A stretch of DNA of 36,922 nucleotides from a virus: positions 1-36,922 of the IMG/VR virus record IMGVR_UViG_3300047333_000073, one strand, 5' to 3'. Shown here piece by piece: positions 2,994 to 36,922 of the stretch. The position numbers were made by a program, and so were the translations under genes. How positions within the stretch are numbered: the first letter of the stretch is position 1; every line of letters begins with the position of its first letter. The notes below the pieces were generated by a model. The model worked only from the letters and a program-made list of their open reading frames with translations, searched no databases and was not told where the DNA came from.

Positions 2994-4439
2994 GTGATCC
3001 ACCTTCGCGACTACCAGCAAAAAGCGGTGACGGATATTCGGGCGGCGATGGCAAAGTCGCGGCGTGTGCTGTTTCAACTGCCTACAGGCGGTGGCAAGAC
3101 GGTGATCTTCAGTTTCGTAACGAACGGAGCCGCGATCAAAGGCAAGCGCGTTTATATCCTCGCGCATCGGCAGGAAATCTTGCGCCAAATATCGGCGGCG
3201 ATCGCGCAGCACAATTTGCCGCATGGGTGGATAGCACCTGGCCGCACGCCGACGACCGATAACTGTCAGATTGGCATGATCCAGACGGTCGCACGCCGGC
3301 TGGACACGCTACCAGCCCCGGACATGCTAATCGTCGATGAAGCGCACCATGCCGCTGCGCAGGGGCAGTATGCTACAGTTCTCGCCGCGTGGCCGGGTGC
3401 GTATGTTTTGGGCGTCACAGCCACGCCTGAGCGGCTTGACGGGCGCGGATTGAACGCTTCGTTCGATGTGATGGTTCAAGGCCCGCAAAGCCACGAATTA
3501 ATAGACCGTGGCTTTTTGGCAAATTTCGTTTACCTCGCGCCCGAACTTGCAACATTCGACGGCGTGAAATCGCGCGCCGGCGATTACGTATCCGAGTCGG
3601 TAGCGGATATTATGGACAAGCCGCAGATCATCGGTTCGGCTATTTCGCATTATCAAAAATATCTCGACGGAAAGACTGCGATTGCGTTTTGCGTCACGGT
3701 CGCGCACGCCGAACACGTCGCGCAGCAATTTCGTGATGTTGGCATTCCGGCTGCTTCAATCGACGGAAAAATGCTGCCGCAACAGCGCATGGAAATCTGC
3801 GCCGCGCTGGCCACGGGCCGCATAAAAGTTTTGACATCGTGTGAGTTGATATCAGAGGGGTTCGACGCACCATCGGTCAACGGCGCGATACTGCTGCGCC
3901 CGACGAAATCTTTGGCGATGTATTTGCAGCAAATCGGGCGATGCCTTCGTCTCAAGCCAGACGGCAGTAGCGCGGTTATTCTGGATCACGTCGGCAATTA
4001 CTCGCGTCACGGTATGCCTAATAGAACTAGGTCATGGTCACTTGAGGGGCGCGACAAAAAGAAAGAAAAATTTGACACGAAAAAATGTGATCTATGCTTT
4101 AAGGTGTTTGAGGTCAAAAAAGACTGGAAAGACTGCGCCGAGTGCGACGAGCGCGACGATCCGAAATGCGCATTGCATGTAAAATCAAACGAGGAACGCG
4201 AGCCGGGCGACAGGTTGATTTCCGAGGTCGCTGGCGAACTGCGTGTCGTTTCCGATTCGCCAGAATGGGCTGGTGGCATCAATATAATCCGCGCCTCCGG
4301 ACCGGAGTGGAAAGCAATGATTGCAAAGGCTGACACACGCGAAAAATTGAGCGAGATTGCAAAAATTCGCGGATACAAACGGGGTTGGGTGGCACATATG
4401 ATGAAAATCAGGGAGCAGTATCATGGCAGAGACCTATGA
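2994..4439 (+). CDS. SF2 DEAH-box helicase with Cys-rich C-terminus
   Basis: A 481-residue superfamily-2 helicase of the UvrB/RecQ-like phage type, expected to unwind or translocate on DNA using ATP. Motifs: Q-tip RDYQQKAV (5-12), Walker A PTGGGKT (30-36), DEAH VDEAHH (114-119), motif III TATPERLDG (142-150), motif V SEGFDAP (287-293) and motif VI QQIGRCLR (312-319). After the helicase core, C365-x2-C368, C381-x2-C384 and C392 form a probable zinc-binding module. The GTG at 2994 begins directly at the Q motif. The VRR-NUC gene overlaps its 3' end by 17 bases, and the pair recurs in phage replication or recombination cassettes. Confidence 0.93.
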   Translation: MIHLRDYQQKAVTDIRAAMAKSRRVLFQLPTGGGKTVIFSFVTNGAAIKGKRVYILAHRQEILRQISAAIAQHNLPHGWIAPGRTPTTDNCQIGMIQTVARRLDTLPAPDMLIVDEAHHAAAQGQYATVLAAWPGAYVLGVTATPERLDGRGLNASFDVMVQGPQSHELIDRGFLANFVYLAPELATFDGVKSRAGDYVSESVADIMDKPQIIGSAISHYQKYLDGKTAIAFCVTVAHAEHVAQQFRDVGIPAASIDGKMLPQQRMEICAALATGRIKVLTSCELISEGFDAPSVNGAILLRPTKSLAMYLQQIGRCLRLKPDGSSAVILDHVGNYSRHGMPNRTRSWSLEGRDKKKEKFDTKKCDLCFKVFEVKKDWKDCAECDERDDPKCALHVKSNEEREPGDRLISEVAGELRVVSDSPEWAGGINIIRASGPEWKAMIAKADTREKLSEIAKIRGYKRGWVAHMMKIREQYHGRDL

Positions 4440-4749
4440 TGTCACGCTGCCGGTGCTGGTTGCCGTGTCGCAACGTGAGAACGCGATTTACTGGCGACAA
4501 AACAGCGGATTATTTTTTAGCCTTGACGGAAAGCGGCATATTCGCTCAACATCAATCAAAGGGATTCCGGATATTATGGGGGTCGAGCGCGGATATCCCG
4601 TAGGTATTGAAACCAAGGCAAAAAAGGGGAAACAGGGCGAGACACAACGCATTTTTCAACGCAATTTTGAAAAATCTGGCGGCATTTACATCATCGCGCG
4701 CTCACCGGAACAAGCATTAGCCGAACTGGATAAACTGCCATGGCCTTAA
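4423..4749 (+). CDS. VRR-NUC domain nuclease
   Basis: A 108-residue stand-alone VRR-NUC protein, a PD-(D/E)xK nuclease family related to Holliday-junction and flap nucleases. Active-site residues are seen in KGIPDI (46-51, Asp50) and GIETKAKKG (61-69, Glu63 and Lys65), followed by the conserved Q-x4-F-x9-G segment. GGGAG lies upstream of the ATG at 4423. It overlaps the helicase and the following gene, consistent with joint action on branched DNA. Confidence 0.9.
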   Translation: MAETYDVTLPVLVAVSQRENAIYWRQNSGLFFSLDGKRHIRSTSIKGIPDIMGVERGYPVGIETKAKKGKQGETQRIFQRNFEKSGGIYIIARSPEQALAELDKLPWP

Positions 4750-5216
4750 CTCAATCCGCTTCCGAATGGGAAGAACAATACCGTCGCGCCGAAGTGCTGG
4801 TCGAGTTTGCGCTCGCTGGCCGCAATGCGATGCGCAAAACCGGCGCGGCGGCAAGACCGGAAGATTTTCGGCTGCATTTGGCCGGCGTCATTCCTCGTAT
4901 TGTCGGATCACTCACGAAAAACGAAATTTCCTACGAAGATGCTGAGGGCGCGGTGACGCAATTCGCGGCTGATTTTCCACCGCACGATTACGATTATGCG
5001 ATTGATTCGTTTCACAAAGCTATCACAAGGCGCGCGGACGAAAATATTAGGATTACGGCGGAAATCCGTGAAAAGTGCGGTCCGATGATCGTGGCTGGCA
5101 TCAACCCTGAAAAAATCCGCGCCGCCGCGCACTCAATAAACAAATTCGGCACGATCAGCGAGGCCGACGTCACTGAAATCCTTCGCCATGAATGGCGTAA
5201 ATTAAAAAATGGATGA
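4740..5216 (+). CDS. Hypothetical protein of the replication cassette
   Basis: A 158-residue mostly helical, charged protein (MALTQSASEWEEQYRRAEVL...). It overlaps the VRR-NUC gene by 10 bases and the ATPase gene by 8, so it is embedded in the replication cassette. I see no catalytic motif. A helicase loader or primase accessory role is possible from position alone. Confidence 0.7.
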   Translation: MALTQSASEWEEQYRRAEVLVEFALAGRNAMRKTGAAARPEDFRLHLAGVIPRIVGSLTKNEISYEDAEGAVTQFAADFPPHDYDYAIDSFHKAITRRADENIRITAEIREKCGPMIVAGINPEKIRAAAHSINKFGTISEADVTEILRHEWRKLKNG

Positions 5217-6888
5217 CCAGCATCGCGAAATTGACGAGTGGGATTTAGATCACGGCGTTCCAGAGCCGTTCCCGATTGATGGCGTCAAGCCGCTTGGTTA
5301 TGATCGCGGGCCAGTGTTTTTTTATTACTCGGCGTCATTAAATCAAGTCGTCGCACTTAACCCGGCGCAGCACACGCGCGCAAATCTGGAAGGCATGGCG
5401 AGCGGGCCGAAATACTGGGAAAATTTCGACGCGTTTATGTCGAAACAAGGGTTTTCTTGGGCGCAGCTTTCGGGCTGGCTTATGGCGCAATGCCGCGAGG
5501 CCGGCGTGTACGATCCGGCGCGAATTCGCGGCCGGGGCGCGTGGCTTGAGGGCGATCAGCCGATTTTGCACGTCGGGGATGCGTTGATCGTCAACGGGGA
5601 GCGCCGGTCCCTGCAATACCCCGGTAGCCGATTTATTTACGAAGCGACGGTTTCGCTTTTGCCTGATATCATGCCCCCGGCCGCCACGATTGACGCCCAT
5701 TGGCTGGTCAAAGTGTGCCGCCTTTTGCGGTGGGAAATCCCGGCTCACGGCACGCTCCTGGCTGGCTGGATCGCCCTCGCACCCATCAGCGGCGCTTTGC
5801 GCTGGCGGCCCTCTGTGTGGCTTACGGGCGGCTCCGGCGCGGGCAAATCCTGGGTGATGGATAAGATCGTCACCGCCGTGCTGGGCCAGATTGCGGTTGC
5901 GGCCGCATCCACCACCACAGAGCCTGGTTTGCGTCAAAAGTTGCAATCGGACGCCAGGCCGATCATTTTCGACGAGGCCGAGGCCGAATCGGGGCGCGAT
6001 GCCGAGCGGTTACAGTCAATTCTCAATCTGGTTCGGGTGTCTGCGTCAGAAAATTCGCCCGATATCCTAAAAGGCACGGTCGGCCAGTCCGCGGCAAAAT
6101 CTTTCCGCATTAGGTCAATGTTCCTGTTCCAGTCAATCAACGTCAGCCTTTCCAAACGCGCGGACGAAAGCCGCATCACCGTCCTGAGCCTGCGGGACCA
6201 GTCGAACGCGCGCGATATCGGTTTCGACGACCTCGACGCCACGGTGCGCGAGCGGATCACCCCGGATTTTGCCAGCGCGCTTATCAGCCGCTCGGTCAGC
6301 CTAATCCCCGTCATTCGCGCCAACGCCGAGACCTTTGCGACCGCTATCGCCTCCCATCTCGGCAATCGCCGCTTGGGCGATCAGCTCGGTGCCCTACTGG
6401 CCGGCGCGTACAGCCTGCACTCCACCGGCCTAATATCCGCCCCAGACGCCCTGGCCTATGTGCGGCGCGAGGAATGGGCGGACCAAGCCCCCGACACCGA
6501 CGAAAAGGACGAATTCCGCCTGCTGCGCTTCCTAATGGCCTCCAAGCTACGCATCGGCGCATCCGAAATGCCCGTTTCGCGGCTTCTCGAGGCCGTTCAG
6601 GCGCTTGAACAAGCCGAAGGTCTCCCAACACCGGAAGTGGCGGACAGGGCTCTACGCGAGGCTGGGATCAAGTATGCGCCGCGCGAAAACCGGCATGGGG
6701 TGTATGTCAGCAACAACCACCCGTCGCTCAAAGCCATGCTGCGAGGCACAGATTGGCATTCGGCGTGGTCCAGGTCTCTCGCCCGCATTCCCGGCAGCGT
6801 CGGCGGGCGTGATATAATGCAGCGGTTTGGGCTGGGTCATCAATCCCGCGCAGTGTGGATTGCCATGGGCGTAATCGACCCGCCTTAA
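5209..6888 (+). CDS. Replication-type P-loop ATPase (phage helicase/primase-like)
   Basis: A 559-residue protein with a central ATPase: Walker A GGSGAGKS (207-214) and Walker B PIIFDEAEAE (251-260, Asp255/Glu256), then a sensor-like segment SMFLFQSINVSL near 300. The domain resembles DUF927/D5-type phage helicase ATPases that act with or instead of a primase-helicase at the origin. The N-terminal 190 residues lack a recognisable primase motif. The start overlaps the previous gene. The GTGTACCA-rich region lies immediately downstream, which fits an initiator or origin helicase acting close to its gene. The biochemical role is inferred. Confidence 0.75.
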   Translation: MDDQHREIDEWDLDHGVPEPFPIDGVKPLGYDRGPVFFYYSASLNQVVALNPAQHTRANLEGMASGPKYWENFDAFMSKQGFSWAQLSGWLMAQCREAGVYDPARIRGRGAWLEGDQPILHVGDALIVNGERRSLQYPGSRFIYEATVSLLPDIMPPAATIDAHWLVKVCRLLRWEIPAHGTLLAGWIALAPISGALRWRPSVWLTGGSGAGKSWVMDKIVTAVLGQIAVAAASTTTEPGLRQKLQSDARPIIFDEAEAESGRDAERLQSILNLVRVSASENSPDILKGTVGQSAAKSFRIRSMFLFQSINVSLSKRADESRITVLSLRDQSNARDIGFDDLDATVRERITPDFASALISRSVSLIPVIRANAETFATAIASHLGNRRLGDQLGALLAGAYSLHSTGLISAPDALAYVRREEWADQAPDTDEKDEFRLLRFLMASKLRIGASEMPVSRLLEAVQALEQAEGLPTPEVADRALREAGIKYAPRENRHGVYVSNNHPSLKAMLRGTDWHSAWSRSLARIPGSVGGRDIMQRFGLGHQSRAVWIAMGVIDPP

Positions 6889-6914
6889 CGATACCGCTTG
6901 ACGGTGCGCAAAAC

Positions 6915-7237
6915 GTGTACCATAAAAAACCTAGGGTTTCTGCGGCTTTCCCTTGGTACACCGGGACACTTCCCAAACTATGTGTACCATCAAAATGTAC
7001 CGCAAAATCGACGCCATATCAGCGTCTTTTCAAAATGGGACACCGGTACCACAAAATCCGTGTTGAAAGCCCTATACAAGGTATGGGGGAAACGCGCGCG
7101 TGTTGTGTATGCGTGTACCATGTGTACCATATATATATATTTTTATAATAAGTTATTATTATTATTAGGTTTTTTTCCAGAATGTAGCGGTACACATGCT
7201 GGTACCACAGTGTTACCACTTTTTGGGTGGTGTACCA
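6915..7237. repeat. GTGTACCA repeat cluster (about 10 copies)
   Basis: Copies: GTGTACCAT at 6915-6923, TGGTACAC at 6954-6961 (inverted), GTGTACCAT at 6982-6990, TGTACC at 6996-7001, GGTACCA at 7045-7051, tandem GTGTACCAT at 7113-7121 and 7122-7130, GGTACAC at 7189-7195 (inverted), GGTACCACA at 7201-7209, a variant TGTTACCAC at 7211-7219 and GTGTACCA at 7230-7237. The density is far above chance for an 8-mer. A dedicated DNA-binding protein is implied. Confidence 0.85.
7144..7149 (+). promoter_or_regulatory. Perfect TATAAT hexamer, possible -10 of late promoter
   Basis: TATAAT lies in the AT-rich tract just after the tandem GTGTACCAT pair. The position expected for the -35 (about 7121-7126) falls inside the repeats and has no TTGACA match. 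An activator-dependent or repeat-regulated promoter for the packaging and capsid genes is possible. Such hexamers also arise by chance in AT-rich DNA. Confidence 0.3.
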
Positions 7238-7390
7238 GCTAGAGGGCGCTCTCGAAAACTGACGGCACATATCGCATCTGGCGGGTCGCCTAACCCGTTA
7301 CCCGCAATTCACAACCGCACGAAAACACTTGCGAAACGCGTAAATTTCTGCACATCTCGCGGACACAACCCTCGCGGAGCTTCGAAACCG

Positions 7391-7612
7391 ATGAAAAAAA
7401 TGTCGAAAATGGGCGGCGGCGGCAAAGGAACCGGCGGAAAAGCCGGAATTTCGAAGTCGCCCTCGATGAAGGCTTCTGGTGAAAAATCCAGTAAAATGAG
7501 CGTCGCTTCGGGCTCTGGGGCCGGTGTCCACAAATCCAAACACCCCATCGCCACCTCCGCTCCTATGCACCCGCACAAACTTTCGCGAGCGCCCGCCGGT
7601 TCGTTAAAATAA
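7391..7612 (+). CDS. Small basic Gly/Ser/Lys-rich protein
   Basis: A 73-residue protein, very rich in Lys, Ser and Gly (MKKMSKMGGGGKGTGGKAGI...), with no hydrophobic core and probably disordered. The ATG at 7391 is chosen where the composition changes; GGAG lies 11 bases upstream. Upstream in-frame sequence lies in the repeat region and looks non-coding. It sits immediately before the terminase genes, where small basic DNA-binding proteins occur, but no function can be assigned. Confidence 0.5.
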   Translation: MKKMSKMGGGGKGTGGKAGISKSPSMKASGEKSSKMSVASGSGAGVHKSKHPIATSAPMHPHKLSRAPAGSLK

Positions 7613-7635
7613 TTCTGCAAACTGGAAGTTCATTA

Positions 7636-7905
7636 GTGGCCGGAACCGGAAACATTGCGAATCTGACAAATGCTGGAAAGGGACGCCAGAAAGGTGTGCC
7701 CAACAAAGCGACTAAGCTGTTGAAAGAACAGATTTTAGAGTCGCTCGACGCAGAGGGAGGTGTGCTTTACATCCGAAAGTTGGCGCAAGAGCAGCCTGTC
7801 GCATTCGCCTCGCTTTTAGGAAAAATCCTGCCAACACAGATTTCCGGCGAAGGTGGCGGTCCGGTGCTGATCATCACGGGAGTTCCCCGCGATGCCGCAG
7901 ATTGA
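7636..7905 (+). CDS. Probable terminase small subunit-like protein
   Basis: An 89-residue protein with a GKGRQKGVPNKATKLLKEQI segment (residues 14-33), followed by helices ending in LGKILPTQI. This conserved layout is common in phage proteins encoded just before the large terminase. It overlaps that gene by 14 bases. The GTG at 7636 has GGAAG about nine bases upstream. By position it is the best small-terminase (DNA recognition) candidate, but it is shorter than most small terminases. Confidence 0.65.
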   Translation: MAGTGNIANLTNAGKGRQKGVPNKATKLLKEQILESLDAEGGVLYIRKLAQEQPVAFASLLGKILPTQISGEGGGPVLIITGVPRDAAD

Positions 7906-9184
7906 GACAGGATATGTCCATCGACCCCAGTTCAAACCTTTCCACACCAGACGCCAGCGATTTTACGCCATGTGCTGCCATCGCCGGGCCGGGAAAACGG
8001 TTGCTGTGGTCAACGACCTCATTGATTCCGCCCTGCGCTGCGATAAGCCCGACCCGCGTTTCGGTCTCGGGTATCCGTTTCGTGACCAGGGCAAAGAAGC
8101 CGCTTGGGGGTATCTCAAGCGCTACGGTCTACAAGTCCCTGGCGCCGCGGCAAACGAAACAGACCTGCGCATCGACTTTAAGTCCAACGGCAGCTTCGTT
8201 CGCATCTACGGCCTCGACAATTTCGAAGCCCGCCGAGGCGGGTATTTCGACGGCTTCGCGGTCGACGAGTACGGCGACGTGAACCCGACCGTCTTTCCTA
8301 CGGTCATCAGGCCGATGCTTGCCGACCGCGGCGGCTGGGCTGCTTTATTCGGAACAAGCAAAGGCCGCAACCACTTTGCGGACGTCATGGAGCGCGCTCA
8401 GACAAGCCCTGAATGGGGTCACATGATCTTGCGGGCGTCCGAGAGCGGCATCCTGCCGGCCGCCGAGCTTGCGTCTCTCAGGGCCGATATGAGCGAGGAG
8501 CAATACGCGTCCGAGTTTGAATGCAGCTTCGAGGGCAGCGTTGTCGGCGCGTATTGGGGACGGGAAATGCAAGCCGCAGAAGCCGCCGGCCGTATTGGTA
8601 ATGTGCCGTACCAATCCGAGATCGGCGTCGAGACGTGGTGGGATTTGGGCGTTGGCGATGCCAACGCCATATGGTTCACGCAATCGGTGGGGCGCGAGGT
8701 CCATGTGATTGATTATTACGAAAACAGCGGCGAGGGCGTGCAGCACTACGCCAAGGTCCTGCAAGAGCGCGGGTACGTATATACCAAACACCACGCCCCG
8801 CATGACATCATGGTGCGCGAATGGGGCAACGAAGCCCGGACGCGGTTCGAGACGGCGGCCAGGCTCGGCATCAAATTCGAGATCGTTCCAGATGTAGGGT
8901 TGCAAGACGGCATTGACGCAGCGCGCTCGTTTATCGCTCGATGCTGGTTCGACCGAAAAAAGACCGAGCAAGGCCGCAACTCCCTGACCAACTATCGCAA
9001 AACTTGGGATAATAAACGCAAGGTCTTTTCCAATTCGCCGTTCCACGATTGGGCGTCCAACGGCGCCGATTCTTTCAGATATTTGTCGGTCGGTCACAAG
9101 ATCGCGACGCAGCGGAACACGACGACCGCGCGGCGTTCGCTTCAAACGGCCGGCAGCGCCTCAACAGCATGGATGGCAGGTTAA
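7892..9184 (+). CDS. terL: Terminase large subunit
   Basis: A 430-residue packaging motor and headful nuclease. The ATPase has Walker A CHRRAGKT (29-36), Walker B FAVDEYGDV (122-130, Asp125/Glu126) and coupling motif FGTSKG (153-158). The C-terminal RNase H-like nuclease begins with WDLGVGDAN (250-258, Asp251) and has a second acidic site in the DWASNGADSFRY segment near 387-398. It pumps DNA into the procapsid through the portal encoded just downstream. Length and motifs are complete. Confidence 0.95.
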   Translation: MPQIETGYVHRPQFKPFHTRRQRFYAMCCHRRAGKTVAVVNDLIDSALRCDKPDPRFGLGYPFRDQGKEAAWGYLKRYGLQVPGAAANETDLRIDFKSNGSFVRIYGLDNFEARRGGYFDGFAVDEYGDVNPTVFPTVIRPMLADRGGWAALFGTSKGRNHFADVMERAQTSPEWGHMILRASESGILPAAELASLRADMSEEQYASEFECSFEGSVVGAYWGREMQAAEAAGRIGNVPYQSEIGVETWWDLGVGDANAIWFTQSVGREVHVIDYYENSGEGVQHYAKVLQERGYVYTKHHAPHDIMVREWGNEARTRFETAARLGIKFEIVPDVGLQDGIDAARSFIARCWFDRKKTEQGRNSLTNYRKTWDNKRKVFSNSPFHDWASNGADSFRYLSVGHKIATQRNTTTARRSLQTAGSASTAWMAG

Positions 9185-36296: not shown

Positions 36297-36922
36297 TTCG
36301 CAGCCTCCGCAGCACAGGCGCGCATGTCGGCCAGCGCATGTTCGTTGGATGCGCTAAAATTCGGGATGGGTTTATCCGGGCGCGACTTGGCATAAATCAT
36401 CGCGCCAGCGGCCGAACTGCCAACGGCTTTTTCCAGAGCGTATCCCGCATCACCGCACAGGTGGATTGCCCAGCCGGCGCGGCAATGTGTTGTCCGGCAA
36501 ACGTGCCATTTGCTCATATCAAGTTTGTTGCCGTCTTTCTCAACGGCTTCGAGGATCGCCGCGTCGATATTTGGCAACAAAGGGATTTCCGCGTCGCGCA
36601 GGTCCGCGCCGCTCAGGTACGCGCCGGTCAGGTTCGCGCCGCGCAGGTACGCGCCGCTCAGGTACGCGCCGGTCAGGTCCGCATCGCCCAGGTCCGCATC
36701 GCCCAGGTCCGCACCGCCCAGGTCCGCACCGCCCAGGTTCGCGCCGCTCAGGTTCGCGCCGCTCAGGTCCGCGTCGCGCAGGTCCGCGCCGCTCAGGTCC
36801 GCGTCGCGCAGGTCCGCGTCGCGCAGGTCCGCGTCGCGCAGGTTAATATCGGACTTCAAAGCCTTTCTCACCGCCCAGCCAAGCAACACGGCTTGGTTTG
36901 CGTCGGCCAGATCGGCGGGCGG
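36293..36922 (-). CDS. Pentapeptide-repeat protein, main part (5' end continues at window start)
   Basis: The open frame enters at 36922 (…[18 protein letters not shown]) and carries about 17 pentapeptide repeats ([20 protein letters not shown]) encoded by 36590-36844. The C-terminal domain of about 95 residues contains [20 protein letters not shown] and [20 protein letters not shown], a region I recall in other phage pentapeptide proteins. The internal GTG at 36889 is not the true start: the ATG lies at 273 in the overlapping copy. The gene is coupled to the methyltransferase and the 147-residue gene. Confidence 0.88.
36590..36844. repeat. 15-bp tandem repeats encoding pentapeptides (17 units)
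   Basis: Seventeen 15-bp units vary mainly at four positions, giving DLRD, DLSG, NLSG, YLSG and DLGG forms. The final six units match units 1-6 at the window start in order, but the following two units found there (91-120) are missing here. Confidence 0.95.
36835..36922. repeat. Terminal direct repeat, right copy (window overlap)
   Basis: Identical to 111-198. It lies in the N-terminal coding part of the pentapeptide-repeat gene. The overlap shows that the window ends join. Confidence 0.95.

Follow-up and report, generated by a model that had tools for sequence, protein, structure and literature searches.

The window, i.e., the whole stretch of 36,922 nucleotides of viral DNA analysed here, contains a cluster of short repeats with replication genes upstream and small genes and a terminase gene downstream, in agreement with a previously proposed placement between the replication cassette and the late genes (Table 1). 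The gene immediately preceding the cluster codes for an AAA+ helicase of 559 residues, hereafter referred to as the ATPase. An HTH protein is also encoded in the genome, and no primase was recognised in the record, where TOPRIM_3 and the DnaG zinc ribbon both went undetected. Positions 1649-2422 encode a 257-aa protein in which NUMOD3 motifs (Pfam PF07460, E 2e-26), repeated over six stretches, make up most of the sequence, with no recognised nuclease domain. The two ends of the record are joined by an exact 83-bp repeat (116-198 and 36840-36922), so that a genome closing on itself is probable; the first 115 bases, which fall in a gene of the pentapeptide-repeat kind, seem to result from an assembly slip within this repeat.

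Table 1. Coordinates of the repeat cluster, its elements and the neighbouring genes in the window.
Feature	Position	Strand	Remarks
SF2 (ResIII/DEAD-type) DNA helicase, replication cassette	2994..4439	+	relative in 62/88 ATPase loci
VRR-NUC-like / Holliday junction resolvase-like nuclease	4423..4749	+	phrog_5702 E 2e-9; Pfam VRR_NUC below cut-off
158-aa protein, no family assigned	4740..5216	+	not conserved with the proposed origin
559-aa AAA+ helicase (ATPase), proposed initiator	5209..6888	+	phrog_35358 DNA primase, C-terminal half, E 9e-94
Iteron cluster, proposed origin of replication	6915..7237		ten (T/G)GTACC cores and six exact GTGTACCA
Exact copies of GTGTACCA	6915, 6954, 6982, 7113, 7122, 7230	+, -, +, +, +, +	
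One-mismatch copies of GTGTACCA in the cluster	7036, 7188	-, -	GTGTCCCA (7036), GTGTACCG (7188)
Head-to-tail iteron pair GTGTACCATGTGTACCA	7113..7129	+	left of A+T tract; 9-bp period (7113/7122)
A+T-rich tract, proposed unwinding element	7125..7174		lowest nearest-neighbour duplex stability of 36.9 kb
Opposing pair of degenerate iterons GGTACACATGCTGGTACCAC	7188..7208	-	right of A+T tract; copies 7188, 7201
Terminase large subunit, start of late module	7892..9184	+	phrog_2 terminase large subunit

The occurrence of the repeat cluster was confirmed. It starts 27 bp past the ATPase stop codon (6888) in a stretch that appears non-coding, as had been assumed, no credible gene being found there ahead of the next likely start at about 7394. 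The word GTGTACCA is present in six exact copies in the window versus 0.28 expected from shuffling, all six falling inside the cluster. When both strands were counted, the core (T/G)GTACC occurred at ten sites between 6916 and 7231 versus five in the remaining 36.6 kb; with a core density outside the cluster of 0.05 per 351 bp, a Poisson probability of about 2e-20 was calculated. The "about ten" copies reported in the earlier note are then correct once the degenerate ones are included, and the head-to-tail pair that it described was indeed found 9 bp apart and adjoining the A+T tract. Nearest-neighbour energies returned the duplex stability minimum of the whole window for the 50 bp starting at 7125, with a z of -5.8 versus -3.5 for the runner-up elsewhere, and this global minimum sits between the pairs 7113/7122 and 7188/7201. 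Cumulative GC skew, proposed earlier as a check, showed no extreme at 7 kb and lent no support to an origin.

The ATPase aligned only to the C-terminal, helicase half of the phrog_35358 primases, the fused primase domain being absent. The ATPases of two further loci (L136 and L137) also look short, like the window's helicase without the primase half of its relatives, and a helicase-only branch comprising these three may exist. Comparison with DUF5906 returned 14.3 bits (E 0.067), below the Pfam cut-off of 27.6, and no Pfam match to DUF927 was obtained at E <= 0.1. The structure model of the entire protein (pLDDT 89) found its best PDB match in SCCmec Cch (5dgk_A), with a Z of 14.7 and an rmsd of 6.0 for 430 residues aligned over 24-559, further matches being the SaPI5 primase-helicase, D5-type helicases and MCM, the last also matched by the AAA+ core alone (Z about 14). 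The C-terminal domain (about residues 428-559), modelled alone, reached a pLDDT of 94 and its best PDB rows were mostly winged-helix DNA-binding domains (TcpK, IBP39 and HSF, which we take to be winged helices), weak matches with Z at most 4.7; Foldseek returned no significant match for this domain alone. These weak matches lead to a prediction of a winged-helix-like fold.

A direct search with the ATPase alone retrieved no relative in viral contigs, and an ATPase profile was needed instead, which fetched 80 loci from these contigs; the non-redundant set comprised 63 loci, including the window. A significant short-repeat cluster was present in the first 400 bp past the ATPase stop in 31 of the 63 loci (p<0.01 versus shuffles), and the best mixed-orientation cluster of the locus started within -60 to 350 of this stop in 32. 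The iteron words differ among the ATPase lineages and include TGTTACG, TGTCACG, TGGTAAC, TTGCAAC, TGTTTCA, TGTTGAC and CGTTAGG, among others. Since clusters recur behind the ATPase stop under different words, their position is conserved while the word turns over, a pattern that an initiator and the sites it binds would be expected to show. Two expectations had been formulated for the motif, namely that it should not be equally frequent elsewhere in the genome and that it should be kept in relatives sharing the flanking genes; the former was borne out, whereas most relatives with the ATPase have other words in place of the exact one. The remaining ATPase loci, about half, showed no strong cluster directly downstream, some of them having one kilobases away, and in L135, which has the closest relative of the ATPase (62%), the sequence stops short of the cluster region. 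Comparison of iteron words with the similarity of the C-terminal domains gave a partial rank correlation of 0.17 (p 0.05), and the AAA+ core correlated at least as well; the link between word and C-terminal domain thus appears weak and not specific. In Acinetobacter phage Acjo_20 (L012), nine TGTTACA/TGTAACA repeats in mixed orientation occupy 3075-3426, upstream and not downstream of the primase-helicase gene.

Gene-independent scans, carried out with the pattern GTGTACCAN{0,30}GTGTACCA and the 17-mer GTGTACCATGTGTACCA, returned 54 mixed-orientation clusters with at least six copies, near-identical contigs being counted apart; the 17-mer was found in 43 viral stretches versus 2 for a permuted control 17-mer. 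By the motif alone, dozens of viral contigs with 6-12 copies were recovered, often arranged as inverted 9-bp tandem pairs. Many clusters consist of two tandem pairs, with about 9 bp within the pair, facing each other across A+T-rich DNA; the segment enclosed by the inverted pairs measures 80-130 bp, and the commonest distance between motif starts across facing pairs is 82 or 123 bp. In Acinetobacter-type and Acutalibacter sequences (L244, L253, L316 and L283) the cluster immediately follows a DUF5906 primase-helicase gene, and DUF5906 above cut-off is encoded in 10 of the 20 motif records tested. One record found through the motif (L017, identical to G016) encodes a 909-aa homologue of the window ATPase (28% over 533 aa, E 7e-41). 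Several motif records, some of them fragments, had no detected primase-helicase, and the cluster of a podovirus-like group (L120, L236, L246 and L229) is located 8-15 kb from the primase-helicase gene. The Acinetobacter-type cluster DNA gave no blastn match among named phages. The motif-only hits L055, L128, L105, L083 and L028 were set aside, as they look like repeats within long coding repeats. Three contigs of one bacterial genome, Veronia pacifica (L260, L306 and L313), carry nearly the same GTGTACCA cluster, its spacings unchanged or almost so, as would be seen with a single element in multiple copies. At 2426-2542 of L224 and 2816-2933 of L245, viral records of 38-47 kb without a DUF5906 hit, the cluster takes a form richer in G+C (--++++++).

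We consider it quite likely that 6915-7237 is an iteron origin of replication and that the gene directly before it, that of the ATPase, encodes the probable initiator, whose C-terminal domain would bind the iterons. The earlier interpretation of iterons plus an A+T-rich unwinding element as an origin finds support in the place of the cluster, in its melting profile and in what other phages show, as well as in the best structural match of the ATPase, Cch being a relative of SaPI Rep, but nothing points to the protein priming that had been associated with its opening. Since the 158-residue protein, previously listed as a candidate binder, has relatives in none of the 88 ATPase relatives' loci, the adjacent ATPase appears to be the likelier binder and probably reads the GTGTACCA word. 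From the observed cluster, its place behind the helicase gene, the melting minimum and the way the layout recurs alongside different words and different primase-helicases, we infer that the GTGTACCA iterons would be bound by the winged-helix-like domain, that the facing tandem pairs across the A+T tract would position two helicase rings, and that these rings would melt 7125-7174 and move apart, giving an origin active in both directions; the primase providing the primers would come from the host or from a gene that went unrecognised. The lack of a GC-skew extreme, the absence of an adjacent cluster from about half of the ATPase relatives, the 8-15 kb between cluster and primase-helicase gene in the podovirus-like group, the weak link between word and C-terminal domain, the weakness of the winged-helix matches and the lack of a recognised primase speak against this reading.

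Because the correlation between word and C-terminal domain is weak and not specific, another protein may bind the iterons. Within the origin reading, a sub-case that we judge rather unlikely would have the SF2 helicase, the HTH protein or a host factor bind the repeats and recruit the ATPase; the correlation test fails to set the ATPase C-terminal domain apart, and clusters sometimes lie far from the ATPase gene, which would suit such a binder. However, the helicase is the gene most consistently accompanying these clusters; of the 88 loci, 62 have a relative of the SF2 helicase and none was found to have one of the 158-aa protein.

Two further explanations place the cluster with the late genes, and a contig (L319) encoding a TerL 96% identical to that of the window, together with relatives of two small genes before TerL, bears on both. 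Homology between the two sequences exists only from about 7320 on, and its sharp loss (about 7320 in the window, about 330-340 in L319) marks the border of replication side and late module, a position that on this comparison is a module exchange point. Since the upstream DNA of L319 is unrelated, the cluster stays with the replication side, and a late promoter or a pac site is therefore disfavoured. The late-promoter alternative had already been raised in the earlier note; it regards the cluster as a multi-operator control region in which a phage repressor or activator would bind GTGTACCA and control transcription from the TATAAT at 7144. This hexamer does exist, the cluster lies upstream of the late genes and an HTH protein is encoded in the genome, but no sigma-70-like promoter was detected in 6600-7700, the late genes of L319 work without the cluster, and clusters in other phages come after replication genes. 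We regard this explanation as improbable, even if the late genes of L319 may be controlled in another way. A site for packaging (pac) or of a partition-like kind, with the small terminase or a ParB-like protein as its binder, would agree with the terminase genes nearby in the window and with L117, whose cluster ends about 50 bp ahead of the small-terminase gene; with no cluster upstream of the near-identical TerL in L319, and with the clusters of other phages following primase-helicase genes, it appears highly improbable.

Origins are known for only a minority of phages. The simple rule of a mixed-orientation short-repeat cluster directly behind a primase-helicase gene yields a candidate origin in about half of the 63 loci, from both uncultured and cultured phages, and the differing words beside related helicases would represent ready matched protein/site pairs for learning how initiators read DNA. 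It is conceivable, even if not very likely, that GTGTACCA and its variants form a portable origin code, distantly related or unrelated phage primase-helicases (the DUF5906 and phrog_35358 types) having converged on, or exchanged, both the word and the layout of inverted 9-bp pairs; if so, the initiator of one phage could use the origin of another during coinfection, thus selecting for word turnover. The design itself is known from other mobile DNAs; in the literature searched, no relevant paper contained the GTGTACCA word, and no description of it or of its wide occurrence in phages was found.

Relatives of the DUF5906 type occur among named phages in Moraxella phage Mcat9 and Pseudomonas phage PG1. 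Directly behind their primase lies a gap of 330-360 bp with repeats of the GTGTGAAGG type and of the GTGTCGGGT/GTGTTGGGT type; most are spaced by 9 bp and inverted around the centre. The exact word GTGTACC was not clustered in the named phages tested, including those close by ATPase. The closest named relatives of the ATPase, the primase-helicases of Bordetella phages PY223, PBb001 and PBb002 (41-42% identical), are also located behind an SF2 helicase but, unlike the window, these phages carry a CHC2 zinc-finger primase half and no GTGTACC cluster. The alpha protein of phage P4 combines origin recognition and helicase in one protein. TOPRIM-type primase-helicases exist among the relatives of the window ATPase, a P4-like trait, whereas the ATPase itself differs from alpha in having no recognised primase half, and the P4 iterons probably differ in sequence from GTGTACCA.

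In the archaeal plasmid pRN1 the origin lies directly downstream of a primase-helicase gene whose product bears a C-terminal winged helix (PMC4234260); unlike in the window, this origin uses a 100-bp stem-loop and not a set of iterons. Both SaPI Rep and Cch2 employ their C-terminal domains to recognise iterons placed immediately after the respective gene (PMC7581432). The window differs from the SaPI and SCCmec systems in that the host element is a phage of about 37 kb and not an island, its ATPase scores above the Pfam cut-offs for neither DUF927, the family of Cch and SaPIbov1 Rep, nor DUF5906, and about ten copies of the GTGTACCA word are present instead of the three AAGTG of Cch2. With SaPI Rep/ori and SCCmec Cch/Cch2, systems of self-loading helicases, it shares an AAA+ helicase, a C-terminal domain, here predicted to be winged-helix-like, and iterons directly downstream of the helicase gene; the modelled overall fold of the ATPase resembles that of Cch, its best structural match at full length, and an A+T-rich segment lies between the iteron sets, as in a SaPI Rep-type origin.
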